Below, one piece after another: positions 15,309-51,471 of a stretch of 56,467 bases of DNA; positions within the stretch are counted from its first letter, which is position 1, and every line of letters starts with the position of its first letter. A model generated the notes under the pieces. That model was not told the origin of the DNA. It saw only the letters and a list, made by a program, of their open reading frames with translations, and did not search any database. The position numbers and the translations under genes were made by a program. This DNA is from Pseudomonadota bacterium (GTDB lineage Bacteria; Pseudomonadota; Gammaproteobacteria; Steroidobacterales; Steroidobacteraceae). The stretch covers positions 1-56,467 of the forward strand of contig JAJYLP010000010.1 in NCBI GenBank assembly GCA_021787615.1, in the 5' to 3' direction.

Positions 15309-16639
15309 GTCAGCAGCCGCGTGATCCGGTCGCCTACGTCCTCAAGCGCTATCCGCGCCTGACCGAGACGTTCATACTCAACGAGATTCGCGCCATGGAG
15401 CGGCTTGGCGAGCGACTGCACATCTTCTCGCTCCTGCCGCCGGAGCCGCCGCCGCACCATCCGATGGTTGCCGAGGTTCGCGCGCCGGTTCATGTGCCTC
15501 CGGAGGGCTGGAGGGCGAAAGCGCGGGTGACGATCAGGGCGCACATGGCGATGCTGCGCGCATTCCCCGGCCGCTATCTGCGCAGCGCCGCTCTTGCGAT
15601 CGCCCGCACGCTCACCTCGCGTCACCCGGTTTCACTGTGGCGTCAATTTGCACGCGCGGGCGTGGTCGCTGACATGTGTCGGCGGGAGGGTGTGCGGCAC
15701 ATTCATGCACACTTCGCCAATGCGCCGACCTCGGTCGCCCACTTCGCGCACCGCATGAGCGGCATCCCCTTCAGCTTTACCGCCCACGCCAAGGACATCT
15801 ACCTGTCCCGCCCGGTGATCCTGCGCAGGCATCTGCACGCAGCTGAATTCGTGGCGACCTGCACTGCATACAACGCCGCATACCTGCGGCAGGTCGCGCC
15901 CCGGCTCGATGCGCGCCGGATTCATCTGGTCTATCACGGGATCGATCTGCAGAGCTTCGCGTGCGCCGAGGCGCGTTCGGTGAGGCGTGCCGGTCATCGG
16001 CCGAGAATCCTGGCGGTCGGACGGCTGGTTCCGAAGAAGGGTCACGAGGATCTGCTCGCCGCGTGTGCGCTGCTGCGCGATCAGGGAGTCGAATTCGAGT
16101 GCGAAATCGTCGGCTCGGGGCCGCTGCACGAGGCGCTGCGCGGCGAAGTGCACCGCCAGGACCTGACGGATCGGGTGAGACTTTGCGGTGCGATGACGCA
16201 TCATGAGCTGATCACGCGCTATCGGGAAGCGGATCTGTTCGTACTGGCGCCGCGTATCGCCGACGACGGGGACCGGGACGGAATTCCGAACGTCATCGCC
16301 GAGGCGATGGCAGTCGGCGTGCCGGTTGTCGCAACGGATGTGTCGGGAATTCCGGAGCTGGTCCGGCATGGACAGACTGGTCTGCTTGCGCCGTCACGGG
16401 ATCCAGCCGCACTCGCAGCGGCAATCAAGCGCCTGCTCGAGGATCGGGAGCTCGGCGAATCCCTGGCGGGGGCGGCTGGCGATGTGCTGCGCCGTCACTT
16501 CGATCTGTGGCAGACCACGCGCGGGCTGCATGACTTGATGCGCCACCCGCGGTGTTGCGTTACGGATGCGGTGCCGGGAGAGGCCAGAATGGCCCGGGCC
16601 GAAGTCAGTTCGCCTGTGATCGGGGAGGGCGTCCGGTGA
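15305..16639 (+). CDS. GT4-family glycosyltransferase
   Basis: A 444-residue GT-B enzyme. The opening KRYPRLTETFILNEIRAME is typical of exopolysaccharide glycosyltransferases. In the C-terminal domain I see AVGRLVPKKGHEDLLAA, RYREADLFVLAPRI and GIPNVIAEAMAVGVPVVATDVSG (the E-x7-E donor motif). The start overlaps the previous stop by four bases, so the two are translated together. Function is inferred as one step of a surface or secreted glycan. Confidence 0.88.
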   Translation: MSQQPRDPVAYVLKRYPRLTETFILNEIRAMERLGERLHIFSLLPPEPPPHHPMVAEVRAPVHVPPEGWRAKARVTIRAHMAMLRAFPGRYLRSAALAIARTLTSRHPVSLWRQFARAGVVADMCRREGVRHIHAHFANAPTSVAHFAHRMSGIPFSFTAHAKDIYLSRPVILRRHLHAAEFVATCTAYNAAYLRQVAPRLDARRIHLVYHGIDLQSFACAEARSVRRAGHRPRILAVGRLVPKKGHEDLLAACALLRDQGVEFECEIVGSGPLHEALRGEVHRQDLTDRVRLCGAMTHHELITRYREADLFVLAPRIADDGDRDGIPNVIAEAMAVGVPVVATDVSGIPELVRHGQTGLLAPSRDPAALAAAIKRLLEDRELGESLAGAAGDVLRRHFDLWQTTRGLHDLMRHPRCCVTDAVPGEARMARAEVSSPVIGEGVR

Positions 16640-17889
16640 GAATCCTGTACCTGAATTTCGACCGTGGCATTCCCGTACTCGGAGACAAGGGCGCCTCGGT
16701 GCATGTGCGCGAATTCGTTCGAGCGGCGGCGGCTCTCGGACACGAAGTTGTCGTGGTCTGCGCTCGTGCTGGGGAGGGCAACGCAGGCCCGCCGGCGGTG
16801 CTCATCGAACTCGCCCCGCAATGCCCGGGTGAGTGCGCAGATGGAGTCGCTCGGGAGCGCGGCGCGGAAGCCTCTGGGGCGGACGCGGCGCTGCTCGCCG
16901 GCGAGCTTGCGAAGCTCGCCTACGATCGGTCGGTCGGTGATCGCGTGTGTAGCGAACTCCGCGCCCGCAACTTCAGGCCGGATTTCGTCTATGAGCGCCA
17001 CGCGCTCTTTTCCAGCGCCGGTGCGCGGATCGCGGCGCGCTTCGATTGTCCGCGGGTTCTCGAGGTCAATGCGCCGCTCGCTGAAGAGCAGAAGCGCTTC
17101 CGCGGTTTGAGCCTGGAATCGCTTGCACGGCGCCTGGAAGCGGTCTCCTTCGCCAGTGCCGATGTAATTGTCGCGGTGTCCGAGGCCGTCAAAGCGTACG
17201 TAGAGGCTCTGGTGCCGGAGCGAGCGCAGCGCATCCAGGTGATGGCCAATGGAGTGGACGTGCGGCGCTTTGCTGCGGGAAGGATGCAGCGCGAGGGGAT
17301 CCGGGCGCGCCTCAGAGTCGGGCCGGACACCGGCGTGATCGGCTTCGTCGGAAGCTTCAAGTCCTGGCATGGCACGGACCTGCTGCTCGAGGTGTACCGA
17401 GCCGTCGCCAGGGTACGGGACGTGCACCTTGTGGCGGTCGGCGAGGGGCCGCGGTGGGAGGAGTTCCGTAACAGGGTGTCAGTTGCGCCATGCCGAGAGA
17501 GCGTGACGCTTGCCGGTCGTGTGCCGCATGCGGATATCCCGGGGTGGACGGCGGCCTGCGACGTCGTTGTTGCCCCATATCAGGCCGCGGCTGATTTCTA
17601 CTTTTCTCCCCTGAAGGTGATTGAGGCTCTGGCCTGCGGTCGGCCGGTGGTTGCACCGCGTCTGGGTCAGCTGGCCGAGCTCATCGCAGAGGAAAGGACG
17701 GGATTGTTGTACCACCCGGATGATGCGGTGGACTGCCGGCGCGCAATCCTCAAGATCCTCGATGATCGGGATCTGCGCACCGCGATGGGACGGGCGGCCC
17801 AGGCGAGCGTCGCCGCGCGTGGCTGGGACCGAATCGTGCAGCGCGTGACCGAGCTCGTGCGCGCAGCTCGCATGGGAGCAGCGGCGTGA
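16636..17889 (+). CDS. GT4-family glycosyltransferase
   Basis: A 417-residue GT-B enzyme starting at GTG 16636, which overlaps the previous stop (GTGA) and follows GGGGAGGG. N-terminus MRILYLNFDRGIPVLGDKGAS, with the ligand loop GASVHVREFVRAA. C-terminal motifs are GFVGSFKSWHGTDLLLEV and FYFSPLKVIEALACGRPVV (E-x7-E region). A longer upstream frame exists but lies inside the previous gene and lacks a start signal. It is one of three transferases in this operon, consistent with a repeat unit of several sugars. Confidence 0.88.
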   Translation: MRILYLNFDRGIPVLGDKGASVHVREFVRAAAALGHEVVVVCARAGEGNAGPPAVLIELAPQCPGECADGVARERGAEASGADAALLAGELAKLAYDRSVGDRVCSELRARNFRPDFVYERHALFSSAGARIAARFDCPRVLEVNAPLAEEQKRFRGLSLESLARRLEAVSFASADVIVAVSEAVKAYVEALVPERAQRIQVMANGVDVRRFAAGRMQREGIRARLRVGPDTGVIGFVGSFKSWHGTDLLLEVYRAVARVRDVHLVAVGEGPRWEEFRNRVSVAPCRESVTLAGRVPHADIPGWTAACDVVVAPYQAAADFYFSPLKVIEALACGRPVVAPRLGQLAELIAEERTGLLYHPDDAVDCRRAILKILDDRDLRTAMGRAAQASVAARGWDRIVQRVTELVRAARMGAAA

Positions 17890-19706
17890 GCGGGACACGA
17901 TCGCAGACACTGCATTGGCTCGGCCCTTATCTCCGAGGCGAATGGCGACGCCTGGGTGCGGGCTCGGCGGCGATGGCGTTGCGTGCGGGGGTGCTGCTGC
18001 TGCTGCCATGGCCGCTGAAGTTCATCGTTGACAGCGTCATTTTTCACAAGCCGCTCGGCCTGTGGGCGGCGGCGATCCTGCCCAACCCGCTGACGCACCG
18101 GCTCGAGCTGCTGCATGCACTGGGTCTGGCGATTCTTCTGCTCGGACTCGCCGAAGCGGGGCTGGCGTATCTCGGCAACCGGCTGCTGCTCGATGCCGCT
18201 CAATGCATCGGCTTTTCGGTCCGGCGCGACTTCTTCTCGCACCTGGTGCGTCTCCCGCTGGCGTTTCACCGCCAGCGTCTCAGCGGCGAGCTGGCCGCGC
18301 GGATCGGCGGCGACGTCAACGCGCTGCAGCAGTTCGTCGCGGCGGTGGGACTGGATCTGCTGCCGCACGTTTTGACGATCTCAGGAGTCTTCGCCGTGTT
18401 GCTGGCGATGAATTGGCGCTACGGCCTGCTCACCTTGGCCATCGCCCCGGTGCTGATGTGGATCGCCCACCACTTCGCCGGCGAGATTCGCAGCACGGCA
18501 CGCATCACCCGGCGGCGTGAGGGGGAGCAGAGCGGCGCGACGCAGGAGGTGCTCGGCAACATCCAGCTCGTGCAGGCGTGTGCGCGCGAGCCGTTCGAGG
18601 AGCGGCAGTTCACCGCCCGAGCGGACTCGGTGCTCGAAGCGGCGCTGCGCGGCAATCGCGCGCAGGCCGGGTTTGCGCCGTCGATGAACCTGGCGATTGC
18701 GGTTGCGACCGGCGGTATCGCCTGGTACGGGGCCCTGCTGGTGCTGAAAGGATCGCTCACCGCGGGCGATCTGCTGGTCTTTCTCGCCTATCTGCGGGCG
18801 ATCGCGGCGCCGGCACGCCAGCTGGCCAAGGCCGGGCGGGTGTTCGGTCGCGCAGCGGTCGCAATTGAGCGCATCGCCGAGTATCGGGCCGAAACCGGTG
18901 CGATCCGCGAGTCCGACGGTGCGTTGACGCCGCAGCATTGCGCAGGACACGTCGAGTTCCGCTCGGTGTCGTTCAGCTATGGCCAGGATAACCCGGCCGT
19001 CCGAGACATATCCTTTGCGCTGGAGCCCGGACGGATGGTGGCGCTGGTCGGTACGACGGGGGCGGGCAAATCGACCATTGCCGCACTTGCGGCCCGGTTT
19101 CACGATCCGCAATGCGGTGCAGTGCTGCTCGACGGGCGAGATTTGCGCGAGCTCAGTCTGCGCTTCGTGCGGACGCGGATCGCGATGATCCCGCAGGAGC
19201 CGCTGCTGTTCCACGCGCCGGTCTGGGCCAACATCGCTTACGGTCGCGAGGGAGCCGGCCGCGCCGAGGCCGTCGCCGCGGCAAAAGCCGCCGGGGTCGA
19301 TGAGCTGATCGCGGCGTTGCCGGACGGGTTCGATTCGACGGTCGGTGAGCGTGGCGCGACGCTCTCGGGAGGACAGCGGCAATGCGTTGCTGTCGCTCGG
19401 GCGCTGCTGAGCGACGCTGCGGTCGTAATCTTCGATGAGCCGAGCAGTAGCGTTGACCCGGCGACCGAGCGGCGCCTGATGCATGCCCTGCGGGTTCTGG
19501 CCCAGGGGCGCACGGTGCTGCTGATCGCGCACCGGCTCGCGACCGTCACTTCCGCAGAGACCATCCTGGTCCTCGAGCGTGGTCAGATTACACAGAGTGG
19601 GACTCATGCCGAACTGATCGGCGCCGCGGGCACGTATGCGAATCTGTGGCAGGCCCACGGGGACGCGCCGGCAAACGCAAACCTGCGCCTTGTTGCTACC
19701 GCATGA
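17886..19706 (+). CDS. ABC exporter, fused membrane and ATPase domains
   Basis: A 606-residue half-transporter beginning at GTG 17886 (four-base overlap). Residues about 20-320 form the six-helix exporter domain. Residues about 355-590 are the ATPase: Walker A GTTGAGKST, Q-loop IPQEP, signature LSGGQRQ, Walker B VVIFDEPSSS, switch His in IAHRL. A dimer would carry a lipid-linked or free glycan from the cytoplasm across the inner membrane. No Wzx flippase, Wzy polymerase or Wza/Wzc gene is in the window, so this fused exporter is the probable export route. Confidence 0.92.
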   Translation: MSGTRSQTLHWLGPYLRGEWRRLGAGSAAMALRAGVLLLLPWPLKFIVDSVIFHKPLGLWAAAILPNPLTHRLELLHALGLAILLLGLAEAGLAYLGNRLLLDAAQCIGFSVRRDFFSHLVRLPLAFHRQRLSGELAARIGGDVNALQQFVAAVGLDLLPHVLTISGVFAVLLAMNWRYGLLTLAIAPVLMWIAHHFAGEIRSTARITRRREGEQSGATQEVLGNIQLVQACAREPFEERQFTARADSVLEAALRGNRAQAGFAPSMNLAIAVATGGIAWYGALLVLKGSLTAGDLLVFLAYLRAIAAPARQLAKAGRVFGRAAVAIERIAEYRAETGAIRESDGALTPQHCAGHVEFRSVSFSYGQDNPAVRDISFALEPGRMVALVGTTGAGKSTIAALAARFHDPQCGAVLLDGRDLRELSLRFVRTRIAMIPQEPLLFHAPVWANIAYGREGAGRAEAVAAAKAAGVDELIAALPDGFDSTVGERGATLSGGQRQCVAVARALLSDAAVVIFDEPSSSVDPATERRLMHALRVLAQGRTVLLIAHRLATVTSAETILVLERGQITQSGTHAELIGAAGTYANLWQAHGDAPANANLRLVATA

Positions 19707-20548
19707 ACGCTGCGCGCAACATCCGAGGGCGTCAGAGCTGGCGTCTCGGCGTCCTCATTCTGATTTACCGGGCGCTGACGATCGGCGCGCATGCCGACGC
19801 ATGGGTGCCACCCGCGGGAGACGGCTCGTTCGACTTCTCGCTGCGGCAGTACGATGCGACCCGGTTGTTCTTGCCCGATCAATACAGTACGGCGACTCTG
19901 CCCGGCAGCGAGCTGCGCTACACCATGCTGCGCATCACCGGGGTTCAGGGACTGGGCGATCGGCTGTCCCTGGAGTATGACCTGCGGGCCGCGCGGGTGC
20001 AGAAGATTCGCATTCATCATGGCCGGCGCATCGTTGAGACGGCGGGCGGCGTTCAGGACCAGGAGGTCGGCCTCAATTTCGCGCTCACGCAGCGCGCGGA
20101 TTTCGCCGACTCCATTACCCTCAATGTGGTGGCGGCTACCGGTTCGGTGAGCAGCACACCGGCTCTGGGAGTGGGGCACACGGCGGTCGAGCCTGATTTG
20201 CAGATCGGGTTCGCCGGGGCGCGATGGCGGGCATCGCTCATGGCCGGGCCCAGGGTGTTCGTCGATGGCGGCGCCGCGCAGATGCGTGCGGAGTTGGATG
20301 CGGACGTGAGATTGACGCGGCGCCTCGATCTCGGTGCCATCGTCTTTTACGTGCGTACCTTGAAGCTGCGCTCGCCGCTGCCGTTGGCCGACAACGCGGA
20401 GCGCTATGACCTTCTGCGGCCGGGACTGCGGCTGAAATACCGCGTAACCGACCACCTGAAGCCGTTCATCGAGTACGAGCAGGATGTGGCCGGCCAGGGC
20501 ATACACGCCGGGCGGCGCATCACCGTCGGCGTGGCGTACTCGTATTGA
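19703..20548 (+). CDS. Predicted outer-membrane beta-barrel protein
   Basis: A 281-residue protein starting at ATG 19703 (ATGA overlap with the exporter). A signal peptide of about 31 residues ends at GAHA. The rest alternates polar and hydrophobic residues in short strands (LSLEYDLRAARVQ, SITLNVVAATGSV, DLGAIVFYVRTLKL) and ends VGVAYSY, with the C-terminal aromatic expected of a barrel. I do not recognise a named family. Its place after the exporter suggests the outer-membrane exit or anchor for the glycan, which is inference. Confidence 0.75.
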   Translation: MNAARNIRGRQSWRLGVLILIYRALTIGAHADAWVPPAGDGSFDFSLRQYDATRLFLPDQYSTATLPGSELRYTMLRITGVQGLGDRLSLEYDLRAARVQKIRIHHGRRIVETAGGVQDQEVGLNFALTQRADFADSITLNVVAATGSVSSTPALGVGHTAVEPDLQIGFAGARWRASLMAGPRVFVDGGAAQMRAELDADVRLTRRLDLGAIVFYVRTLKLRSPLPLADNAERYDLLRPGLRLKYRVTDHLKPFIEYEQDVAGQGIHAGRRITVGVAYSY

Positions 20549-20562
20549 AAGCGGAGCGGGTC

Positions 20563-21159
20563 ATGCGTTTGTTCTTCGTACGCCATGGCGAGACGGCGTG
20601 GAATCTCGAGCGCCGCTATCAGGGCCGCACGGATGTCGACTTGTGCGCTGTGGGACTTGTAACCGCCCGGGGAATCGCCAATGCGCTGCAGGGGTCGCAG
20701 GTGGCGCTGCTGCTCGCGAGCCCGCTGCGACGGGCGCGAGCTACCGCTGGCTTGGTGGGCGAAGCGCTGGGCGGACTGCCGACCGTGCTCGATGAGCGTC
20801 TGACCGAGATTGATTTCGGCCAATGGCAGGGTCTTACACAGCAGGAAGTGAAGGCGCGCTGGCCTCGAGCGCTGCGCCTGTGGAAGCAGGCGCCGCAGAC
20901 CATGCGCTTTCCGGGCGGGGAGTCTCTGTGTGAGGCGCTTGAGCGCCTGCGCGATTTTCTCCGCCACCCGCCATGGGAGGGCCGCACCGTGTCAGGCGAT
21001 GTGCTGGTGGTGACGCATGCCGGGCCCATTCGGCTCGCCGGACTCATTGCGGCGCATCGGCCGCTCGCGCAGTTCCGACAGATTGCGGTGGACCCTGGCG
21101 CCGTGCATGCATTCGAGTGGTTCGCCGGCGGCGGTGTGCGCCGTGTAAGTTTGCAGTAA
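20563..21159 (+). CDS. Histidine phosphatase (phosphoglycerate mutase-like)
   Basis: A 198-residue enzyme. The catalytic motif [10 protein letters not shown] is at the very start (phospho-His in RHG), the second His is in VVTHAGPIR, and [13 protein letters not shown] is the usual middle segment with the acid residue. The ATG at 20563 follows GGAGCGGG; an overlapping TTG at 20545 is less likely. In a glycan operon it may remove phosphate from a sugar intermediate, but cobalamin-type (CobC) phosphatases look similar. Confidence 0.85.
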
Positions 21160-21176
21160 CGAACATAGGATTCGCT

Positions 21177-22574
21177 ATGAAAGTCACGATATTCGGTTCG
21201 GGTTATGTGGGGCTTGTAACGGCGGCGTGCCTTGCCGATGCGGGTAACCACATCGTGTGCGTCGACGTCGATCGGCGCAAAATTGACATGCTGCGCCGCG
21301 GAGAGGTGCCGATCCACGAGCCGGGCCTCGATGAGCTGATCAGGCACAACAACGCCGCGGGCCGGCTGGAATTCACGGTCGACGCCGATGCCGGCGTGGC
21401 CCACGGGCTGTTTCAGATGATTGCGGTGGGGACGCCTGCGGATGAGGACGGCTCGGCGGACCTGCGCCACGTGCTCGCGGTAGCCGATACCATTGGCGCG
21501 CGCATGCACGAGTATCGTGTCGTGATCACGAAATCGACGGTGCCGGTCGGCACCGGGGACAGAGTGCGCGCGGCGGTCTCGGCTGCGCTGGCGCGGCGCG
21601 GCGTCGCGGTGGATTACGACACGGTGTCGAACCCGGAATTCCTCAAGGAAGGTGCGGCAATCGCCGATTTCATGAAGCCGGATCGCATCGTGGTGGGCGC
21701 CGACAGCGGCCGGGCGGTGCAGCTGATGCGGGCCCTGTATGAGCCTTTCACGCGCAACCACGATCGGCTGCTTGCAATGGACGTGCGTTCCGCGGAGCTG
21801 ACCAAGTACGCGGCGAATGCGATGCTCGCAACGCGGATCAGTTTCATGAACGAGCTGGCGAATTTTGCCGAGCGGGCAGGGGCGGACATCGAAAGCGTTC
21901 GTCAGGGCATGGGCTCTGACCCGCGCATCGGCTACGCATTCATCTACCCCGGGCTCGGTTACGGGGGCTCGTGCTTTCCGAAGGACGTCAAAGCACTGGT
22001 GCAATCCGCCACCGCATCGGGCTGTGATCCGGCCATCCTCAGAGCCGTCGAGGCGGTCAACGAGCGCCAGAAGCACAGGCTGTTCGAGAAAATGGTGACC
22101 CACTTCGGGGATCTTGCGGGAAAGACCATCGCCGTGTGGGGTCTGGCGTTCAAACCGAATACGGACGACATGCGGGAGGCGCCGAGCAGAGTGCTGCTTG
22201 AGCGCCTGTGGTCTGCCGGCGCCAGCGTGCGCGCTTACGATCCGGTGGCGATGCAGGAGGCGCAGCGCCTCTACGGCGAGCGCCGCGAGCTCGCGTTGTG
22301 CTCTTCGGCGGCGCAGGCGCTCGAGGGCGCCGATGCGCTTGCGGTCGTGACCGAGTGGCCGGAATTTCGCAGCCCGGATTGGCCATCGATGCGGCGAATG
22401 CTGCGTCAGGCGGTGATCTTCGATGGCCGCAATCTTTACGATCCGGTGCAGCTGGAAGGTCTCGGCTGGCGCTATTATGCGATCGGCCGCGGCGTAAAGG
22501 CCCAGGGCGCGGTACGCGACAGTGCGCACGGGCAGACACGCCGGGATGGTCGGCGCGCCGTTGCTGCAGCGTAA
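21177..22574 (+). CDS. ugd: UDP-glucose 6-dehydrogenase
   Basis: A 465-residue enzyme that oxidises UDP-glucose twice with NAD to UDP-glucuronate, a sugar donor for acidic polysaccharides. N-terminus [21 protein letters not shown] is the NAD-binding turn. The middle has [12 protein letters not shown], and the catalytic Cys is in [10 protein letters not shown]. The C-terminal UDP-binding domain includes [16 protein letters not shown]. The ATG at 21177 follows AGGA at good spacing; longer frames reach into the phosphatase gene. It closes the cluster and implies the product contains a uronic acid. The last 25 residues are polar and appear extra to the family. Confidence 0.95.
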
Positions 22575-25326: not shown

Positions 25327-25749
25327 GTGAAAGCCATCGTTCTGGTGCTTGCGCTGGCAGGTGCTCTGGCGCCGGCGCTGCCGCGCGGGGCCCTCGCGCA
25401 GCGCGCCGACGCCTACCGCAGGCTTTACGACCCGAATACCGTCGAGACCGTCTCGGGGCGCGTCGTGTCGATCGAGCATATCGTGCACGGCCGGCGCGGC
25501 TACTACGGTGAGCATCTTGTGCTGAGCACGCATCAGGGTCGGCTCGTGGAGCACCTCGGGCCGGGCTGGTTCATGGAAAAACAGGCGCTGCAGATCACGC
25601 CGCATGAGGAGCTGAGCATCACCGGGTCGCGGGTGCTGCTCGGGGGCAAGCCGGCGCTGATCGCCGCGCGGGTCGTCAAGGGCAATGAGACCCGGGTGCT
25701 GCGCAATGCGCAGGGGCTGCTCGTGTGGCGCGGCTCGCGGTATCCGTAG
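25327..25749 (+). CDS. Secreted OB-fold-like periplasmic protein
   Basis: A 140-residue protein with a signal peptide (cleavage near GALAQ) and a small beta-rich body: YDPNTVETVSGRVVSIEHIV … LVEHLGPGWFMEKQAL … ITGSRVLLGGKPALIAARVVKG. The pattern matches a family of short exported proteins, often annotated only as hypothetical, whose fold looks like an OB barrel. It lies 55 bases upstream of a diheme peroxidase, so both may act on the same redox process in the periplasm. Function unknown. Confidence 0.75.
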   Translation: MKAIVLVLALAGALAPALPRGALAQRADAYRRLYDPNTVETVSGRVVSIEHIVHGRRGYYGEHLVLSTHQGRLVEHLGPGWFMEKQALQITPHEELSITGSRVLLGGKPALIAARVVKGNETRVLRNAQGLLVWRGSRYP

Positions 25750-25804
25750 TTCGTCGAGGCGCCGTCCTGCGGTCGCGGCAGCCGGTGGTCGAGGAGTGAT
25801 GATC

Positions 25805-26845
25805 ATGAACGGAAAGCTCATCCCGCTTGTAATGTTTGGCCTTCTCGCCGGTGTCGCGGCGGCCGCCGCGACACCGGTTCACTGGCAGGCGCTGCCGACG
25901 ACGGCGCCCGCGCCGGCGGACAACCCGACGACTCCGGCCAAGGTGCAGCTCGGCAAGATGCTGTTTTTCGATCCGCGCCTCTCCTCGACCGGCACGGTGT
26001 CGTGCTTCTCGTGTCACAACGTCATGGAGGGCGGCGATGACCATCGGCCGGTATCGATCGGCGTCGAAGCACAGCGCGGCGGCCGCAACGCCCCGACCGT
26101 GTGGAATGCGGCATTTCTGTCGGTGCAGTTCTGGGACGGGCGCGCGGCGACGCTCGAGGATCAGGCCAAGGGCCCTCCGGCCAATCCCATCGAAATGGGC
26201 ATGAAGAATCTGCGCATGGTCATCGAGCGCATCCGGCGCATTCCCGGCTACGCACCGTATTTTCATCGGGCGTTCGGGCCGGGCGATGTGATCACCATGG
26301 ACAATACCGCCAAGGCCATCGCCGCCTATGAGCGCACGCTCATCACCCCGGGCAGCGCCTACGACCGCTACGTGCAGGGCGATCATTCCGCGCTCACTCC
26401 CCAACAGGTGCGCGGCATGAATGATTTCGCCGCGGTCGGCTGCGCCGGCTGCCACCAGGGAGCGAACTTCAGCGGTCCGCCGTTGCCTGTGGGCACGGGG
26501 TTTTTCGTCAAATTCCCGATCTATACCGACAATCCGTACGTGAAGAAATACGACCTCATGGCCGACCTCGGACGGTACGAGGTCACGCACCGCGATGCGG
26601 ACAAGCACATGTGGCGTGTGCCGGGGCTGCGTAACCTGGTCTACACCGCGCCTTACTTGCATAACGGCTCGGTGAAGTCCCTGCCCGAGGCCGTACGGGT
26701 CATGGCCGCCACGCAGCTCAATCGCACGCTCAGTCCCGCCCAGGTGCGCGACATCGTCGCCTTTCTCACCTCGCTCACCGGACCGTTCCCCGTGCAGACC
26801 ATGCCGCGCCTGCCGCCGACGCCGGGCAATCTGCTCAGCCGGTGA
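25805..26845 (+). CDS. Diheme cytochrome c peroxidase/MauG family protein
   Basis: A 346-residue periplasmic protein with a signal peptide ending near AAAAAT. Two heme sites: CFSCH in the N-terminal domain (after LGKMLFFDPRLSSTG) and CAGCH in the second. The segment RNAPTVWNAAF … FWDGRA is standard for bacterial peroxidases that reduce hydrogen peroxide with electrons from a small cytochrome. ATG 25805 is six to eight bases after GAGGAG; the ATG at 25799 is too close to that site. The c4 cytochrome or bc1 complex further on could feed electrons, which is inference. Confidence 0.9.
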   Translation: MNGKLIPLVMFGLLAGVAAAAATPVHWQALPTTAPAPADNPTTPAKVQLGKMLFFDPRLSSTGTVSCFSCHNVMEGGDDHRPVSIGVEAQRGGRNAPTVWNAAFLSVQFWDGRAATLEDQAKGPPANPIEMGMKNLRMVIERIRRIPGYAPYFHRAFGPGDVITMDNTAKAIAAYERTLITPGSAYDRYVQGDHSALTPQQVRGMNDFAAVGCAGCHQGANFSGPPLPVGTGFFVKFPIYTDNPYVKKYDLMADLGRYEVTHRDADKHMWRVPGLRNLVYTAPYLHNGSVKSLPEAVRVMAATQLNRTLSPAQVRDIVAFLTSLTGPFPVQTMPRLPPTPGNLLSR

Positions 26846-38790: not shown

Positions 38791-39582
38791 TCAGCCGACC
38801 GGTGCGCGCAGTAGCAGAGGACTCTGTCCGCGCGCCGCCGGCCCCATCGCGTACAGATAGGGGCCGGTCACCTGCTCGGGAAATGGATGCGCATCGCCCG
38901 CCTCGCCCGGGTAGTGCAGGCGCCGTCCCGGAGTCATGACCGCGCCGGTATCGATGCCGAACAGGCGCACCGGGTGGGCGCTGTGCGCGTGATATTCGTC
39001 CGCCAGGACGCCGATGAGCGCCTCTTGTGCGGCCTTGGCCATGGCGAAACCGCCCCAATACGCGCGGCTGGCGGCATGGAGGGAGAAGCCGACGACGGGG
39101 TCCTCGGCCTTGTGCAGCAGCGGCATGCACCATTGTGTCAGGAAGAACGGCGCGGCGAGATTCACGTTCATGACCTTGGTCCAGGCCGCCGGCGGGCAAT
39201 GTTCGAACGGGCTCAGCGCTGCGATCCAGGCGGCGTTGTTGAGCAGACCGTCGAGCCGCCCGAAGCGCGCGCCGATGCGATCGACGATTTCCCGCAGCCC
39301 GCTGATCGTGATTCCGGAAAGATCGGCGGGGCACAGCAGCGGCTCGCTGCCGCCCTGTGCCGCGATTTCATCGCTGAGGCTATCGAGTCCCGCGCGGTCC
39401 CAGTCGAGCAGAATCAGGTTCGCGCCGTGCCGCGCGTAGCGCAGTGAGACGGCGCGGCCGATGCCTTGCGCGGCTCCGGTCACGAGGACGATACGCTGCG
39501 CGAGAAGATCAGTCGGGGCATTGTACTGAAGCAGCTGAAGATAGTCGGCCGACTGTGATTCCATCGGGTGCATCGCAAACAT
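38791..39582 (-). CDS. YciK-like short-chain dehydrogenase lacking the catalytic tyrosine
   Basis: About 263 residues. The NAD(P) site is TGAAQGIGRAVSLRYAR, with LLNNAAWIAAL following, and the tail resembles YciK. The active-site segment reads WGGFAMAK: the Tyr of the Y-x-x-x-K motif is Phe (TTC; 39046-39048), while Lys is kept. The start is chosen as the first of three close ATGs (39582, 39573, 39564), and none has a clear ribosome site. It is divergent from petA, and an SDR (SdrA) is part of the bc1 operons of A. ferrooxidans, so the locus is probably a variant of that module. Loss of Tyr suggests a non-enzymatic or altered role. Confidence 0.8.
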   Translation of the reverse strand: MFAMHPMESQSADYLQLLQYNAPTDLLAQRIVLVTGAAQGIGRAVSLRYARHGANLILLDWDRAGLDSLSDEIAAQGGSEPLLCPADLSGITISGLREIVDRIGARFGRLDGLLNNAAWIAALSPFEHCPPAAWTKVMNVNLAAPFFLTQWCMPLLHKAEDPVVGFSLHAASRAYWGGFAMAKAAQEALIGVLADEYHAHSAHPVRLFGIDTGAVMTPGRRLHYPGEAGDAHPFPEQVTGPYLYAMGPAARGQSPLLLRAPVG

Positions 39583-40072
39583 CGACTGGCAGATTGAAAT
39601 CAATATACGGTAATGCGCCGCGATGCGTCGGCCCTCTTGAGCCCGGCTGGCGACGCGTGACAATGATCAGCTTTCACGCACGTCGGGTCGAATTGAACTT
39701 CTCTTCACGACAGCGCTCGATATCATACGCGCCTCAAAGGAACCGAGGCGATCGGGCGGCCTGCCGGAATCCAACAGCAGGCCCACGGAGCCGCTCGGAC
39801 GATCGCGATTTCTGCAATAGGATTTGATTTTTGCCTTTGGATCCGTTTGCTTCGAAGAGGAACCAGCGCGGCCTCTGCCGCGTGGTATCCGCCACGGTCC
39901 GGCGCCGTCTCGAGAATCGCCGGCAATACTCGTTTGATGCAACGGTGCTGAAGGTGGGCGCGCCGCCCGATAATCTGTGGAGCAGAAATTCGATCGGAAC
40001 GATTTCCGCTCGCTTTGAGATCCGTTTTGTTTCAACGCATTGCAGCAGGTACAGGGCAGAAAGGCGCAAGGC
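39583..40072. other. Divergent control region between the SDR and petA
   Basis: 490 bases with no convincing gene. The centre (39700-40050) is AT-richer than its neighbours, with scattered TTGATTTTT, CTTTGAGATCC and TTTTGTTTC stretches that could hold promoters. I could not identify a clear -35/-10 pair or operator. Confidence 0.45.
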
Positions 40073-40753
40073 ATGAAAGATGACGCGAAGCAGGCCGCAC
40101 CTGAGGTGGTCATGGACTCCATCCGGCCTGCACCGACGACGGACAAGAACCGCAGGCGCTTTCTGGTTTCCACCGCTGGCGTGTTGGGCGCCGGCGCCGT
40201 GGGGCTCCTCGCTGATGCCCTGATCGACAACATGAACCCGGGCAAGGCGGTCGAGGCGCTCGGGGCGCCCATCGAAGTGGATGTCAGCCGCATGGAGCCT
40301 GGGCAATTGATTCTCGCCGAGTGGAAACAGAAACCAATCTGGATCCTCCGGCGCGAGCCATGGATGCTGAAGACGCTCGCCGCACCCTCGTTGCGCCAGC
40401 GCCTGAAGGATCCCGACAGCAAGCAGAATCAGCAGCCGGCGCCGCAGTTCGTCAACGGTGACTATAGAGCGCTGCGCCCTGAGTACTTCATTGCCGTTGG
40501 GCTCTGCACGCACATGCAGTGCATCCCGGGATACCGGCCTGCGCCGCACACCGTGACCCCGTGGTGGCCGGGTGGATTTCACTGCGCATGCCACGGGTCG
40601 ATGTACGACTTCTCCGCGCGCGTCATCGAGGGCTCGCCGGCACCGCTCAACATTCCGATCCCGCCGTACTACTGGATGTCCGAGACGGTGGCGCGCATCG
40701 GCGAGGTGAATGCCTCGGGGTTCGACAAGAACTGGTCGCCCGACATCTGGTGA
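40073..40753 (+). CDS. petA: Ubiquinol-cytochrome c reductase, Rieske iron-sulfur subunit
   Basis: A 226-residue Rieske protein of the bc1 complex. Tat-type twin-Arg signal anchor (KNRRRFLVSTAGVLGAGAVG) near residue 38. The cluster loops read CTHMQC and CACHGSMYD, so all four ligands and both disulfide Cys are present; the common CTHLGC is altered to M-Q. The Ser and Tyr of the second loop that raise the potential are kept. ATG 40073 follows AAGGC. It takes electrons from quinol and passes them to cytochrome c1. First gene of the bc1 operon. Confidence 0.93.
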   Translation: MKDDAKQAAPEVVMDSIRPAPTTDKNRRRFLVSTAGVLGAGAVGLLADALIDNMNPGKAVEALGAPIEVDVSRMEPGQLILAEWKQKPIWILRREPWMLKTLAAPSLRQRLKDPDSKQNQQPAPQFVNGDYRALRPEYFIAVGLCTHMQCIPGYRPAPHTVTPWWPGGFHCACHGSMYDFSARVIEGSPAPLNIPIPPYYWMSETVARIGEVNASGFDKNWSPDIW

Positions 40754-40813
40754 CGGGGCCGCCGTGTGCGGCCTGTCCCTCGGCCCGATCACGAAGAGAA
40801 GGAAACCATAGCA

Positions 40814-41620
40814 ATGAAATCCGCCTTGGCAGCGCTCCTGGTCGCCGTTCTCGCCGTCCCGTCGGTGTACGGTAAGGACGATTACCATGGTCTGCCTCCC
40901 GCCGGCGCCGCGGCACAGGGGGCGGCCAAAATCACCGTGTGCGCCGCCTGTCACGGCGTCAACGGCATCGGCGTGACTCCTGCGCACCCGAATCTCGCAG
41001 GGCAGAATTACAACTACCTGCTCAAGGAGCTCGAGAACTTCCGCAGCGGTGCGAGAACGTCGAGCATCATGAGCGGGATGGCCATGACCATCCCGCCGTC
41101 ACCCGCGAACGCGAATCTCAAGGACATTGCCGCATACTTTTCGAAGCTGCGCCCAATGTGGGCCTACGCCACCGCGCCGGGCGCACCGGCGGCGTCCCCC
41201 GATGAGATCGCACTGGGCAAGGTGATCTACGAGCGCGGCATCGCGGGCGAGAACATCCCCTCGTGCGCGGCTTGCCACGGACTTGCCGGCGAGGGCAACG
41301 GGCCGATGGCGATACCGGCGCTCGCCGGACAGCACGCCCCGTATCTGGTCGCACAGCTCGTTCGATTCGCGGACGGCAAACGCTCCAACAGCCCGGGAAA
41401 TGTGATGTACACGATCGCGCGGGCGATGACCGCAGCGCAGGACACCGCGGTGGCCGCCTACCTGCAGCAGCTCAACCCGAACACGACGCTAGGCATCGGT
41501 CCGAAGGACTTCACCGAGTACGCGAGCGGGATTGAAAGGAAGAGCGCAGCTCACGGCGGCACCGGGCCCGGGGGCGCACGGGCGGGCGCTGCCGCCGGCG
41601 CTGCGCCGAAAGTGCACTGA
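40814..41620 (+). CDS. Diheme cytochrome c4
   Basis: A 268-residue periplasmic cytochrome with a signal peptide (about 20 residues, ends SVYG). Two domains each with CAACHG (residues about 45 and 155), and axial Met candidates in MSGMAMTIPP and NVMYTIARAM. The last 35 residues are Gly/Ala-rich and longer than usual for c4. It lies between petA and petB, where classical operons have none, so it should accept electrons from c1 and hand them to an oxidase. ATG 40814 follows AAGGAA. Confidence 0.9.
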   Translation: MKSALAALLVAVLAVPSVYGKDDYHGLPPAGAAAQGAAKITVCAACHGVNGIGVTPAHPNLAGQNYNYLLKELENFRSGARTSSIMSGMAMTIPPSPANANLKDIAAYFSKLRPMWAYATAPGAPAASPDEIALGKVIYERGIAGENIPSCAACHGLAGEGNGPMAIPALAGQHAPYLVAQLVRFADGKRSNSPGNVMYTIARAMTAAQDTAVAAYLQQLNPNTTLGIGPKDFTEYASGIERKSAAHGGTGPGGARAGAAAGAAPKVH

Positions 41621-41630
41621 CAAGGCGGCC

Positions 41631-41714
41631 ATGCGAACCGGCGGCATGGTCTTTCGCGCGCTTGCCGCAGGGGCGATCGATTACGTACTGGAAGGTCTGA
41701 AGATCCATGAATAG
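41631..41714 (+). CDS. Possible 27-residue ORF overlapping petB start
   Basis: ATG 41631 follows AAGG at five-base spacing, and the frame (MRTGGMVFRALAAGAIDYVL…) ends in a TAG at 41712-41714 that overlaps the petB start by eight bases. It may couple translation of petB or be chance. No homologue is recognised. Confidence 0.25.
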   Translation: MRTGGMVFRALAAGAIDYVLEGLKIHE

Positions 41715-43140
41715 CAGCAACCCATCGAGAATGCGCCGCGTGTTCGGCTGGTTCGACGACCGGCTGCCGATCTCCGCCATGTGGCGCAGTCAGCTGACGC
41801 GCTATCCGGCGCCGAAGAACTTCAACCTCTGGTACTTCTTCGGCTCGCTGGCCATGGTGGTTCTGGTGCTGCAGCTGGCGACCGGGCTGTTCCTGGCCAT
41901 CCACTATCAGCCCAATCCCGACCTCGCTTACTGGTCCGTACTGCGCGGCATCGAGCGCGATTCGCGCTGGGGCTGGCTGATCCGCGACATGCATATCGTC
42001 GGGGCCTCGGCATTCTTCCTGCTGGTCTACCTGCACATGTATCGCGGCATCATGTACGGCTCGTACAAGAAGCCACGCGAGCTGCTGTGGCTGATCGGCA
42101 TCTTCATCTATCTGGCGCTCGCGGCCGAGGCGTTCCTCGGCTACCTGCTGCCCTGGGGACAGATGTCGTACTGGGGTTCGGCCGTTGTGACCAACTTTGT
42201 CACCGCCGTGCCGGTGATCGGCAAGCCGATTGCGACCTGGCTGCGCGGCTCGTTCGTGGTCGGGCTGCCCACACTGAACCGCTTCTTCATCTTTCACGTG
42301 TTCCTGGTGCCGGTACTGCTGCTCGCGCTGGTGCTCGTGCACCTGATTGCGCTGCATCACGTGGGCTCGAACAATCCCGATGGCGTGGAAATACACGACA
42401 ACGTCAATGATTCCTCCTGGCCGCGCGACGGCATTCCCTTCCATCCCTATTACACGGTGAAGGATCTGTTCGGCGTCAGCGTGTTCTTCGTGGCCTTCTT
42501 CTGGTTCGTGTTCTACAACCCCGGCGGGTGGGGCCTGCTGCTCGACAAACTCAACTATACGCCGGCGAATATTCTGCACACGCCCGCCGACATCCATCCG
42601 CTGTGGTTCTTCCTGCCGTTCTACGCCATGTTGCGCGGTGTGCCGGACAAGCTCTACGGCATTTTGGCGTTTGGCGCCTCGTTCGTGCTGCTCGCGTGCC
42701 TGCCGTTGCTCGACCGCAGCCCGGTTCGCTCGATTCGCTACCGGTCCGTGCTTTACAAGCTCAACATCCTGATGATGGCGTTCTCATTCCTGTGGCTTGG
42801 GTACATCGCGCATGGATTCGCGACCGAGCACAACATGGTCTACGGACTGCACGTGACCGAGGTGTTCTATTCGACGTTCCTGCTGCTGCCGTTCTTTAAC
42901 CGCCGGCGCTCGGCGCGCGTCAAGATCGTATGGTTGTTTGCGGCCGAGGCAGTGGTGTGGCTAATCGATCTGTGGATGTACTCCATCCACGCGCATGGCT
43001 GGGACCTGATGCTGCTGACGGACTGGATTCCGACGCTTTATCTGTTGTTGCTGTTCGGGCTGGCAATCGTATTCCCCGCTCTCGCCCACGATAGGCGCCA
43101 GCTGCCGCAGCGGCTGACCGCAGGCGGCCTCTTTCATTGA
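41707..43140 (+). CDS. petB: Ubiquinol-cytochrome c reductase, cytochrome b
   Basis: A 477-residue inner-membrane protein. Heme ligands: His pairs in RDMHIVGASAFFLLVYLH and in FHVFLVPVLLLALVLVH; then GSNNPDGVEI. The Qo-site motif usually PEWY (often PVWY in beta/gamma proteobacteria) reads PLWF at 42598-42609, so neither the Glu nor the Tyr is present. The C-terminus (about 400-477) adds two hydrophobic segments and is longer than many cytochromes b. ATG 41707 has GGAAGG upstream. It oxidises quinol at Qo and reduces quinone at Qi. Confidence 0.95.
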   Translation: MNSSNPSRMRRVFGWFDDRLPISAMWRSQLTRYPAPKNFNLWYFFGSLAMVVLVLQLATGLFLAIHYQPNPDLAYWSVLRGIERDSRWGWLIRDMHIVGASAFFLLVYLHMYRGIMYGSYKKPRELLWLIGIFIYLALAAEAFLGYLLPWGQMSYWGSAVVTNFVTAVPVIGKPIATWLRGSFVVGLPTLNRFFIFHVFLVPVLLLALVLVHLIALHHVGSNNPDGVEIHDNVNDSSWPRDGIPFHPYYTVKDLFGVSVFFVAFFWFVFYNPGGWGLLLDKLNYTPANILHTPADIHPLWFFLPFYAMLRGVPDKLYGILAFGASFVLLACLPLLDRSPVRSIRYRSVLYKLNILMMAFSFLWLGYIAHGFATEHNMVYGLHVTEVFYSTFLLLPFFNRRRSARVKIVWLFAAEAVVWLIDLWMYSIHAHGWDLMLLTDWIPTLYLLLLFGLAIVFPALAHDRRQLPQRLTAGGLFH

Positions 43141-43222
43141 GAGCGGATCGGGAAGGAAGCGGCACATGCCGGCGCTCGAGACGGGTCGAAAACACACGCA
43201 ATTCATTCGGCAGGAACAGGCC

Positions 43223-44035
43223 ATGACGAAGCACAATGCACCGCTCGTGAACCACCGGGTCCTGCTCGCGCTGGCCGTGGGTCTGCTGGGCTCCTTCGGC
43301 GGCGCGGCGCGCAGTTCGGTGGCGACGACGCAACCGCCGCTGCGGCCCATTACGGTCAACCTGCAAGACAAGGCGGCCTTGCGTAATGGAGCGCTGTACA
43401 CGCTGCACATGTGCGTGGCCTGCCATTCCCTGCAGGGGGTGCGCTACAGCTCGCTGCGCAAGATGCTCGGTATGAACCGGACGCAGTACGAGCAAGTCAT
43501 CGGAACGAACGGGAGCCATTATCACGACACGATTATCAGCACGATGCCCTCGGGCGTCATCGATGCGTTCGTGAAGATTCTGCCGCCGGATCTGACGGTC
43601 ATTGCCCGGCGCCGCTCGCCGGCGTGGCTGTATACGTACCTCACGTCGTTCTACGTCGATCCATCGCGCCCGAATGGAGTCAACAACACTGTCCGGTACA
43701 ACGTGGCGATGCCGGATGTCTTTGCGCCGATGCAGGGGCTGCAGAAGCCGGTCATGGTCGCCGGGCTGCGCTTCGGCAGTCCGGCGCAGGTGGCGGTCGG
43801 TGTGCAGCCGTTGACGCAGGGCAGCATGTCTCGGGCCCAGTTCGACCGTACCGCGCGGGACATTGTGGACTTCCTCTACGCGGTGGGGCACCCGCATGAG
43901 CAGGAGCGTGCCCGCCTGGGACCCTGGATCCTCGGATTGTTCCTCGTGCTCTCGGTGCTGACCTATCTGATCTATCGGCTGTACTGGCGGCGGGTCATCA
44001 CCAGCGAGGAGCGGTGGTGGAGGGTCGGCAAGTGA
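43223..44035 (+). CDS. petC: Ubiquinol-cytochrome c reductase, cytochrome c1
   Basis: A 270-residue membrane-anchored cytochrome. Signal segment (VLLALAVGLLGSFGG), heme site CVACHS near residue 65, axial Met candidate in YNVAMPDVFAPM, and the C-terminal anchor LGLFLVLSVLTYLIYRLYW. ATG 43223 follows AGGAACAGG; the longer frame at 43166 lacks a site. It passes electrons from the Rieske protein to soluble cytochrome such as the c4 encoded upstream. Its stop meets the next gene as TGATG. Confidence 0.93.
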   Translation: MTKHNAPLVNHRVLLALAVGLLGSFGGAARSSVATTQPPLRPITVNLQDKAALRNGALYTLHMCVACHSLQGVRYSSLRKMLGMNRTQYEQVIGTNGSHYHDTIISTMPSGVIDAFVKILPPDLTVIARRRSPAWLYTYLTSFYVDPSRPNGVNNTVRYNVAMPDVFAPMQGLQKPVMVAGLRFGSPAQVAVGVQPLTQGSMSRAQFDRTARDIVDFLYAVGHPHEQERARLGPWILGLFLVLSVLTYLIYRLYWRRVITSEERWWRVGK

Positions 44036-44391
44036 TGGACGCCGTTGCCGCCGAGGGAACGCTCCAGCTCGAGAGCGATGAAGCAGCGGCGCGGCGCTCG
44101 GGGCGCGCGTATGTTGCGCTTGCGCTTGGCGCGGTGCTGTTCGTCTTCACGATCTGGTACCAGGTCTACGGCGATACGCGCAGGGATGCGCAAGCCTGGA
44201 CCGACCCGCTTCTGCAGAGTCACCGGCAATGGCGCGTGCGCACCGCCTTCGTGTTTCTGGTGTGGTCGATCCTGGCGGGATTCTGCGTTCCGTTCGGTTT
44301 CGGTGCACTGGTGTTTGCGCCGGTTTGGCTATGGTTCGTGTACCGGGTGATCAGGGGCAGCGTCCTGTTCGCTCGCCGGCGCGTCATTTGA
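44035..44391 (+). CDS. Small membrane protein attached to the bc1 operon
   Basis: A 118-residue protein that starts at ATG 44035 in a TGATG overlap with petC. Two hydrophobic helices (AYVALALGAVLFVFTIWYQVYG and VRTAFVFLVWSILAGFCVPFGFGALVF), with a polar N-terminus rich in Ala/Glu. Its family is not recognised. Overlap with petC suggests a role linked to the complex, for instance assembly or an accessory subunit. Confidence 0.75.
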   Translation: MDAVAAEGTLQLESDEAAARRSGRAYVALALGAVLFVFTIWYQVYGDTRRDAQAWTDPLLQSHRQWRVRTAFVFLVWSILAGFCVPFGFGALVFAPVWLWFVYRVIRGSVLFARRRVI

Positions 44392-50208: not shown

Positions 50209-51471
50209 TCAGTCGCTCTCGAGTCTCGCCACTTCGGCGGCCGTGTCGGAGGCGATTCGCGCTGGGTGGGCTCCCGCCAAAGGATACGTCTTCGACCACA
50301 AGATCGAGTCATTGGCGACCGAGTTGATTCGGATCGTCAGGGCCAGCTTGGTAGCGTGTCCGAGGATGCCCCCGTATAGAACGTAATTCGAATGTTCTGT
50401 ACGTCCCCGCGCCTCAGCGGCGGCCGAATCGAGAGAGAGCAGGGGCGTGACGCTCAGCACAATGTGCTCGTGCCACGTGGCGATCAGCCGGCCGTACACT
50501 TTCGCGAACACGGTCGTGGCGAACTTCAAGGCGTGACTGTCGCCAGGCGGGGCGAAGAACGGGATGACCAGCGCCGAAGGTTGGGCATTGGGCGCAGCCG
50601 ATGTCGCCGCAGCAGCCGTGCTCGTGATTTTGGCGGGCTTGTTCGCGGCATTTGCATCTGATGGGCTGCCCGAGCCGTTCTTCAGAGCCAACGCGAGCCG
50701 CTCGATCTGCGCAATATTCTTGACTTGGGCCGGTGAGAGCACTTGGGTGTCATGGCGTGATGAGCTGGTGCCCCATTGCAGGAGCAAGACGGCAATCCAG
50801 AAGTAGACGATGACCCGTACCCACTTGGGAAAGCGCTGGAAGCCGACCCATGTCGACTGGAGCGTCCAGATCACCACCCGCGCCCAGAAGCGCGCCCTTT
50901 GCCCGGGTTGCTCGCGAGGGAATGCGGGAAATTCGCGACGCCGCGGCGGAGGCGGCGCGCGGTGCCGGGCCCGCGTACGCGTGGCGGGCGTTTGGACGGG
51001 CGGTGCTTCCGCCTCACCCGAAACCAGACGATGACAGAGCGCTTGGAGTGCCGCATTGGGCTGTCCGCCGGGAATTCGCGTCCATTGCACGGTGCGAAAC
51101 TTGTCCGGAACGCGCGCAGGGGCCTCGGCGGTGTCATCCAGGACGACGGGCACCAGAAATACCGTATCGTCGGTCATGTCGAGCGTTCGCTCGACGGCGA
51201 GGCGCCACTCTCTGCGGAAATAGCCTTCGCGCCGCGCTTCGGTGTTCGCCGAGATGACGGGCATGAAGAAGTCGCAGTCGCGGATCTGCCGGCGGATCTT
51301 CTGGTCCCATGCGTCCCCGCCCAGCAGATCGCTCTCGTCGTACCAGGCCTCGAGGCCAAAATTCGGGAGGGCGTCGCGGATGAGCTGCACCGCCGCCCGG
51401 TCTTCCTTGGCGTAGCTCAGGAATACCGTGGGACACGGGCAATCAGGAGTCTGGAGATCGTCAGCGGACAT
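50209..51471 (-). CDS. TIR-domain membrane protein with FlgO/TolB-like C-terminus
   Basis: A 420-residue protein. A TIR domain at residues about 14-150: TVFLSYAKEDRAAVQ (box 1), EAWYDESDLLGGDAW, then FMPVISANTEARREGYFRREW. A Pro/Arg-rich linker, one membrane helix near 215-235 (VIVYFWIAVLLLQW), a low-complexity Ser/Ala stretch, and a periplasmic C-terminal half (ALVIPFFAPPGD … YVLYGGILGHATKLALTIRI) like TolB-N or FlgO. Similar TIR proteins occur in Gammaproteobacteria; I cannot place the catalytic Glu of TIR NADases with certainty. The ATG 51471 lacks a clear ribosome site. Confidence 0.82.
   Translation of the reverse strand: MSADDLQTPDCPCPTVFLSYAKEDRAAVQLIRDALPNFGLEAWYDESDLLGGDAWDQKIRRQIRDCDFFMPVISANTEARREGYFRREWRLAVERTLDMTDDTVFLVPVVLDDTAEAPARVPDKFRTVQWTRIPGGQPNAALQALCHRLVSGEAEAPPVQTPATRTRARHRAPPPPRRREFPAFPREQPGQRARFWARVVIWTLQSTWVGFQRFPKWVRVIVYFWIAVLLLQWGTSSSRHDTQVLSPAQVKNIAQIERLALALKNGSGSPSDANAANKPAKITSTAAAATSAAPNAQPSALVIPFFAPPGDSHALKFATTVFAKVYGRLIATWHEHIVLSVTPLLSLDSAAAEARGRTEHSNYVLYGGILGHATKLALTIRINSVANDSILWSKTYPLAGAHPARIASDTAAEVARLESD

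Follow-up and report, generated by a model that had tools for sequence, protein, structure and literature searches.

A cytochrome bc1 operon with a diheme cytochrome c4 gene between petA and petB and a divergent short-chain dehydrogenase gene in a genus of Steroidobacteraceae

The genome analysed here carries at one locus the genes for the three subunits of cytochrome bc1 (petA, petB and petC), a diheme cytochrome c4 gene inserted between petA and petB, a short-chain dehydrogenase (SDR) gene divergent from petA, and a small membrane protein gene overlapping petC, and this raises the question of what such a set of genes is for. The locus (hereafter the module) lies in the stretch of DNA referred to as the window, which is the whole contig C171 (56,467 bases) of a draft genome (3.73 Mb, 99.7% complete) of the family Steroidobacteraceae. 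A sequence-only reading of the window had described the six genes and proposed that they form a relative of the petI and petII operons of Acidithiobacillus ferrooxidans, with a different gene order and an extra membrane protein, perhaps for reverse or low-potential electron flow. The explanation that we favour, with somewhat more confidence than doubt, is that these genes specify a second kind of bc1, probably spread by horizontal transfer, with a diheme c4 dedicated to it, a membrane protein as probable accessory subunit and an SDR that is probably without catalytic activity, and that this bc1 is probably run forwards.

The six genes were all present as described, and profile matches identified the SDR and the products of petA, petB and petC (Table 1). 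The products include the parts of a bc1 complex, i.e., a Rieske protein, a cytochrome b with four histidines and a cytochrome c1 with a CXXCH motif. The four PetB histidines (H96, H110, H197 and H212), which we take to be the heme ligands, were invariant in all 198 PetB rows of the alignment. The inserted cytochrome carries two CXXCH motifs in all 13 aligned module rows and matched c4 structures at E 1e-30 (phmmer). The module shares with the ordinary proteobacterial petABC a Rieske protein with a Tat signal, a cytochrome b with four invariant histidines and a c1 with a single CXXCH, but differs from it in having c4 inside the operon and a PetB that stands apart from the other rows.

The order of the six genes was identical in 16 out of 16 loci carrying the module petB or SDR, which is more than chance would give. 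The genes therefore form a conserved module, and the gene order of its own and the added membrane protein claimed in the earlier reading are supported. This set consists of the window, one metagenome-assembled genome labelled Rhodanobacter sp. FW106-10_bin.24 (L003; its petB is 84% identical to that of the window), 11 genomes of the same genus found through petB, and three more (G573, G575 and G572) that were picked up by the SDR alone and, when read, carried the whole module in all three cases. The overlap of 22 bp between petC and the membrane protein gene was constant in the 16 loci (tblastn coordinates). With four genes shown on each side, no flanking family outside the module recurred in more than 8 loci, except for the generic SDR seen close by in L121 and L122, which similarity clustering put together with the SDR of the module; in this count the flanks were short at several loci (contig ends), and the simple gene caller overlooked some c4, petA, petC and membrane protein genes that tblastn shows. 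Among 200 genomes of the family the module petB was found in 12, all within the genus of the window (41 genus genomes sampled), and the module SDR was present in exactly those 12 of the 41. In the genus as a whole, the SDR was detected in 15 of 58 genomes.

An ordinary petB-petC pair was identified elsewhere in the same genome, on contig C140 (L124), with no petA in the stretch around it, and a second Rieske gene is located on contig C85 (L279). More than one petB match was found in 9 of 12 module genomes. In the PetB tree (199 rows) the ordinary copy is placed among its genus, at a distance from the module, and the module joins the genome G439 of another family; a recent duplication of the genome's own petABC, considered as the origin of the module, was ruled out by these positions. 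That the module operon is a bc1 additional to the ordinary one is supported. In two other members of the genus (L125 and L126), petA was likewise absent within about 7 kb of petB-petC.

Of 369 genomes of the class, 214 were searched for petB, and 80 petB regions fetched from 77 of these genomes were compared with the proteins of the window. Two of the 80 class regions, and one of 80 named loci (L003), had c4 located between petA and petB. A later search by gene order added two genomes (G583 and G584), so that the arrangement petA-c4-petB-petC is present in four genomes of two other families, G439 (f129) and the group of G461, G583 and G584 (f153). In G439, a homologue of the membrane protein (45% identity) comes after petC, and a SCO1/SenC gene after that; no homologue of the membrane protein gene was found in G461, G583 and G584. 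Ordinary petABC genes are also present in G439 (L248) and G461 (L246). The c4 proteins were compared by identity only: those of the four operons, in the same position between petA and petB, were the closest found, being 42-48% identical to the window c4, and the four remaining c4 proteins of the loci fetched did not exceed 37%.

The trees of PetA, PetB and PetC, all quick trees with SH-aLRT support (PetA from 66 and PetC from 63 of 196 rows, as chosen subsets; duplicate loci dropped), agree in the topology ((module, G439), G461 group). The grouping of the module with G439 is supported at 99 (PetB), 98 (PetA) and 100 (PetC), all 20 c4-type rows are joined with support of 98 in the PetC tree, and a branch of support 99 separates all 178 ordinary rows from the c4-type rows in the PetB tree. 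The module is a distinct bc1 variant and not a copy of the ordinary bc1. Since its presence is scattered, in one genus of the window's family and in two distant families, horizontal spread of the c4-type bc1 is suggested. No description of c4 placed between petA and petB was recognised in the open-licence literature (titles and starts of abstracts, with subscription papers outside this scope).

The distinctness of the c4-type PetB can be read at the level of single residues. After removal of the very long-branched row L283, which was kept in the PetB tree, and with one gene counted twice among the 178 other rows (L096 and L126), 16 PetB columns were fixed in 19-20 of the 20 c4-type rows and occurred in less than 5% of the others, several of them at the Qo site. 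The motif PLWF was present in 20/20 c4-type PetB, as opposed to PxWY in 175/178 others, and the tyrosine of the PEWY-type motif is replaced by phenylalanine in all 20 (3/178 others). By motif spacing and alignment to solved cytochromes b, the Rhodobacter capsulatus residues H276, D278 and E295 are matched by D280, L282 and L299 of the window PetB; PMC10583091 describes a proton-exit network of E295, H276, D278 and Y147. Position 280 is Asp in 20/20 c4-type rows and Glu in 170/178 others, and position 282 is Leu in 20/20 and in none of the 178. S158 and V161 stand immediately after PWGQMSYWG, which we take to be the cd1 part of the Qo site, where the other rows have Ala (177/178) and Ile (178/178), respectively. 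The loss of the Qo glutamate (E295) was also considered as a diagnostic feature and rejected: V or L is found in 176/178 of the other rows too, so that only the remaining Qo changes are diagnostic. The c4-type PetB proteins thus share a uniformly altered Qo region.

The SDR was recognised by adh_short (E 4e-28), and its best NCBIfam model was YciK (NF006509), for which it scored 195 bits, below the cut-off of 269. The active-site N, S and K are retained and Tyr is replaced by Phe in all 16 module SDRs. In the SDR tree (59 rows, omitting the duplicates L128, L129, L264-L266 and L135-L154) the module proteins form one clade (100/100) on a long branch, adjoining YciK-like proteins from many other families (98/90), and the YciK proteins of six sampled genomes of the own genus form a separate clade (100/100). 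The next SDR in the window's genome is 29% identical. Among the 369 class genomes, the top two matches outside the genus belong to G461 (51%) and G439 (48%), which are also the two c4-type operon genomes among the 77 with petB surroundings read; their SDR genes sit elsewhere in the genome and show no special grouping with the module, and this double occurrence may be a coincidence. No pet gene was found in the fetched stretches around the 20 best SDR matches outside the genus, some of which end at contig ends. The next 129 listed matches include 125 genomes with a petB row, in 20 of which SDR and petB share a contig, none within 10 kb (the nearest pair, in G344, is 13 kb apart); where the two lie on different contigs a broken neighbourhood is still possible, and, as the list gives the best SDR per genome, a weaker pet-linked SDR may have been missed. 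The sequence-only reading had stated that its proposal would fail if the SDR grouped with YciK from genomes without such modules and the c4 with unrelated cytochromes: the SDR does group with YciK-like proteins, but the c4, by identity, does not group with unrelated cytochromes.

We consider the module SDR to be probably a non-catalytic, nucleotide-binding accessory protein. As a speculation, it might bind NAD(P) without catalysis, in the manner that NDUFA9 binds NADPH. NDUFA9 is an SDR-family accessory subunit of complex I that binds NADPH (PMC8762328), and SdrA of A. ferrooxidans has been compared with NDUFA9 in PMC2754497; the window SDR differs in being YciK-like.

At E 0.001 the membrane protein matched neither a Pfam nor an NCBIfam family. 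A search of Pfam to E 10 for its family gave nothing convincing, the best match being FA_desaturase at E 0.0014 in one of 10 members (under the cut-off in the member shown), and DUF4870, another candidate, was absent from the Pfam lists to E 10. The structural model is all-helical, with three helices, at low confidence (pLDDT 67). The protein is probably an accessory subunit of the bc1.

The bc1 complex oxidises quinol and passes electrons via the Rieske protein and cytochrome c1 to a periplasmic cytochrome, and c4 is such a carrier. In the explanation we favour, quinol would be oxidised at the remodelled Qo site, electrons would exit via Rieske and c1 to c4, and c4 would deliver them to a putative terminal oxidase. 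Forward flow to an oxidase is taken as the default, and the same wiring could reverse if a high-potential donor reduced c4. The c4 encoded in the operon would be the dedicated partner of the module bc1; the PDB entries 8smr and 8snh (presumably the bc1-cbb3 supercomplex of Pseudomonas aeruginosa) each contain a cytochrome b together with a c4. The SCO1/SenC gene behind the membrane protein gene in G439 belongs to a family known for copper-oxidase assembly and fits an oxidase link there.

Several observations weigh against this explanation. The 16 loci form a single clade in the trees, so that their shared order does not represent 16 independent observations and the co-occurrence of the module genes does not consist of independent events. 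The PetA tree joins the 20 c4-type rows with a support of 93, under the starred level, and the very long row L283 at the drawn root of the PetB tree leaves the c4-type grouping relative to L283 unsettled. No SDR match was found beside the c4-type operons of G439, G461, G583 and G584 in the stretches read. Phe for Tyr is shared by 12 of the 36 further SDR rows aligned, none of them known beside pet genes, and is therefore no mark of the module. As to direction, the Qo changes alone do not indicate in which way electrons flow, and the form I-type RuBisCO of this genome makes autotrophy, and with it reverse flow, possible.

The association with carbon fixation was examined over 58 genomes of the genus, taking as form I-type the matches of E <1e-90 (two of them partial). 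Form I was confirmed by model in the window's genome only, where the large subunit and CbbX scored over the cut-off with transketolase genes nearby and a small-subunit candidate had no NCBIfam match; elsewhere it was read from the E-value class. Form I-type RuBisCO was found in 6 of 15 module genomes vs 21 of 43 others of the genus (Fisher p 0.76), and autotrophy as the reason for the module was rejected in the absence of association. On these counts, the suggestion of reverse or low-potential flow has no positive support either. A second RuBisCO class (about E 1e-70), tried as form II, was dropped as evidence of carbon fixation: its representative in the window's genome is a RuBisCO-like protein closest to OiaX. 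This gene (L292, contig C93) lies beside an OiaK-like kinase gene, both proteins scoring under the model cut-offs, perhaps for isoapionate breakdown. PF00016 matches of this class were counted in 10 of 15 module genomes vs 7 of 43 others (one short fragment excluded).

How far, then, does the likeness to Acidithiobacillus extend? The petI and petII operons, like the module, place a diheme c4 gene, an SDR gene and petABC together, in genomes that have a further bc1. According to PMC10654088 and PMC2754497 the order in Acidithiobacillus and Acidiferrobacter is cycA-sdrA-petA-petB-petC (petII with hip), whereas in the window c4 stands between petA and petB, the SDR gene is divergent and an extra membrane gene is present. 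SdrA1 of A. ferrooxidans is reported to retain N125, S147, Y166 and K170 (PMC2754497), but the module SDR has Phe for Tyr. Of the proposed relationship, the shared kinds of genes stand, and the order and the SDR tyrosine do not agree; the analogy to petI is partly supported. Descent from sdrA and cycA is unsupported in view of the Phe for Tyr and of nearest SDR relatives that are YciK-like, the 20 best of them not beside pet genes (no Acidithiobacillus sequence was compared). That the module is nevertheless a true member of the petI/petII lineage, its sdrA, cycA and petABC co-inherited from a common ancestor with Acidithiobacillus and rearranged later, would account for the same kinds of genes, including the cycA-sdrA-petABC loci reported in PMC10654088 from Acidithiobacillus and Acidiferrobacter, but we give it hardly any credence: the lack of an SDR beside the c4-type operons of G439 and the G461 group suggests that the SDR joined the operon later, in the lineage of the window, and the module SDR sits on its long branch beside YciK-like proteins of many families.

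Functional analogy with petI is improbable too, though less so. The module c4 would then be reduced by a high-potential donor, for instance Fe(II), and the complex would work in reverse, reducing quinone and, via complex I with help from the SDR, NAD. The genes are of the same kinds as those of petI, which is reported to be induced on Fe(II) (PMC2754497); there is a second bc1 besides the ordinary one; the genome has form I-type RuBisCO, CbbX and transketolase genes; and Cyc2 homologues are reported in PMC10654088 from Rhodanobacteraceae, the label of L003, the closest named contig. Against these stand the different gene order, the lack in the SDR of the Tyr reported for SdrA1 and the RuBisCO counts given above, together with a Pfam scan of 40 window proteins, none of which was recognised as belonging to iron or sulfur oxidation (with no search aimed at Cyc2 or rusticyanin). 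Less unlikely than either, though well short of even chances, is that the SDR is an unrelated neighbour filling the YciK role in this lineage and kept near the operon by shared ancestry alone. Among the matches listed, no module genome has a second SDR better than E 1e-18 (the second match in G191 belongs to the same gene, whose far end is on another contig), 19 other members of the genus carry a YciK-like SDR (37-43% identity) with no pet genes nearby in the six that were read, and Tyr to Phe is seen also in unlinked YciK relatives; but the SDR adjoins petA in every one of the 16 loci while other neighbours change, and in the tree it stands apart from the YciK clade formed by six members of the genus. 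We would extend the favoured explanation only with strong doubt to an undescribed bc1 lineage with a remodelled Qo pocket and a c4 wire, for which one genus recruited a catalytically dead, nucleotide-binding SDR that, NDUFA9-like and located on complex III or next to it, would sense or gate the NAD pool and allow a switch between forward and reverse flow.

The c4-type bc1 is coherent and apparently transferable, and in one lineage has a constant SDR companion without the catalytic tyrosine. A bc1 type with a built-in diheme carrier can now be separated from ordinary gammaproteobacterial petABC by residues and genes, and the module offers a system outside Acidithiobacillus for studying the puzzling association of SDR with bc1. 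The combination of SDR, c4 and petABC alone is no marker of iron oxidation or reverse electron flow.

The coordinates of the module are collected in Table 1. The start codons of the SDR, petA (40073), c4 (40814) and petC (43223) genes were picked by aligning homologues; the longer SDR reading frame of the sequence-only reading extends to 39663. No conserved regulatory motif was seen by eye in the region between SDR and petA.

Table 1. Positions of the module genes and of the SDR-petA intergenic region in the window
Feature	Position	Strand	Remarks
YciK-like short-chain dehydrogenase, Phe replacing catalytic Tyr, divergent from petA	38791..39573	-	start Met from alignment of module homologues
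SDR-petA divergent intergenic region, about 0.5 kb, poorly conserved save immediately upstream of petA	39574..40072	.	
petA, Rieske iron-sulfur subunit, Tat signal	40073..40753	+	TIGR01416, 183 bits (cut-off 97)
Diheme cytochrome c4, signal-like N-terminus, two CAACH, Ala/Gly-rich tail, last residue His	40814..41620	+	
petB, cytochrome b, 477 aa, PLWF at Qo site	41707..43140	+	Cytochrome_B, 210 bits
petC, cytochrome c1, one CVACH motif	43223..44035	+	Cytochrom_C1
Membrane protein of 125 aa, its gene sharing 22 bp with petC	44014..44391	+	no known family

The termini of two module proteins show features of their own. The last residue of c4 is His after a variable Ala/Gly-rich tail in 13/13 aligned proteins (window 41620). 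The C-terminus of the window PetB is about 70 residues longer than in most petB matches, and the module PetB proteins terminate in FH in 13/13 aligned (window 43137).

Other bc-type loci were noted as well. G461 carries three different bc-type complexes (L245-L247), one with a split cytochrome b and a c4 behind petC. In G555 (L283 and L307) a very divergent bc complex has an SDR gene directly upstream of petA-petB, and a 245-aa protein without CXXCH occupies the petC position behind them. In G214 (L186) two generic SDR-like stretches (31% and 28%) are divergent from an ordinary petABC.

Elsewhere in the window, positions 25685-26842 contain a gene of the diheme cytochrome c peroxidase/MauG family, positions 50212-51471 encode a TIR-domain protein, and positions 13998-22571 hold a series of genes for glycosyltransferase, ABC transporter and UDP-sugar dehydrogenase proteins that may serve polysaccharide synthesis.

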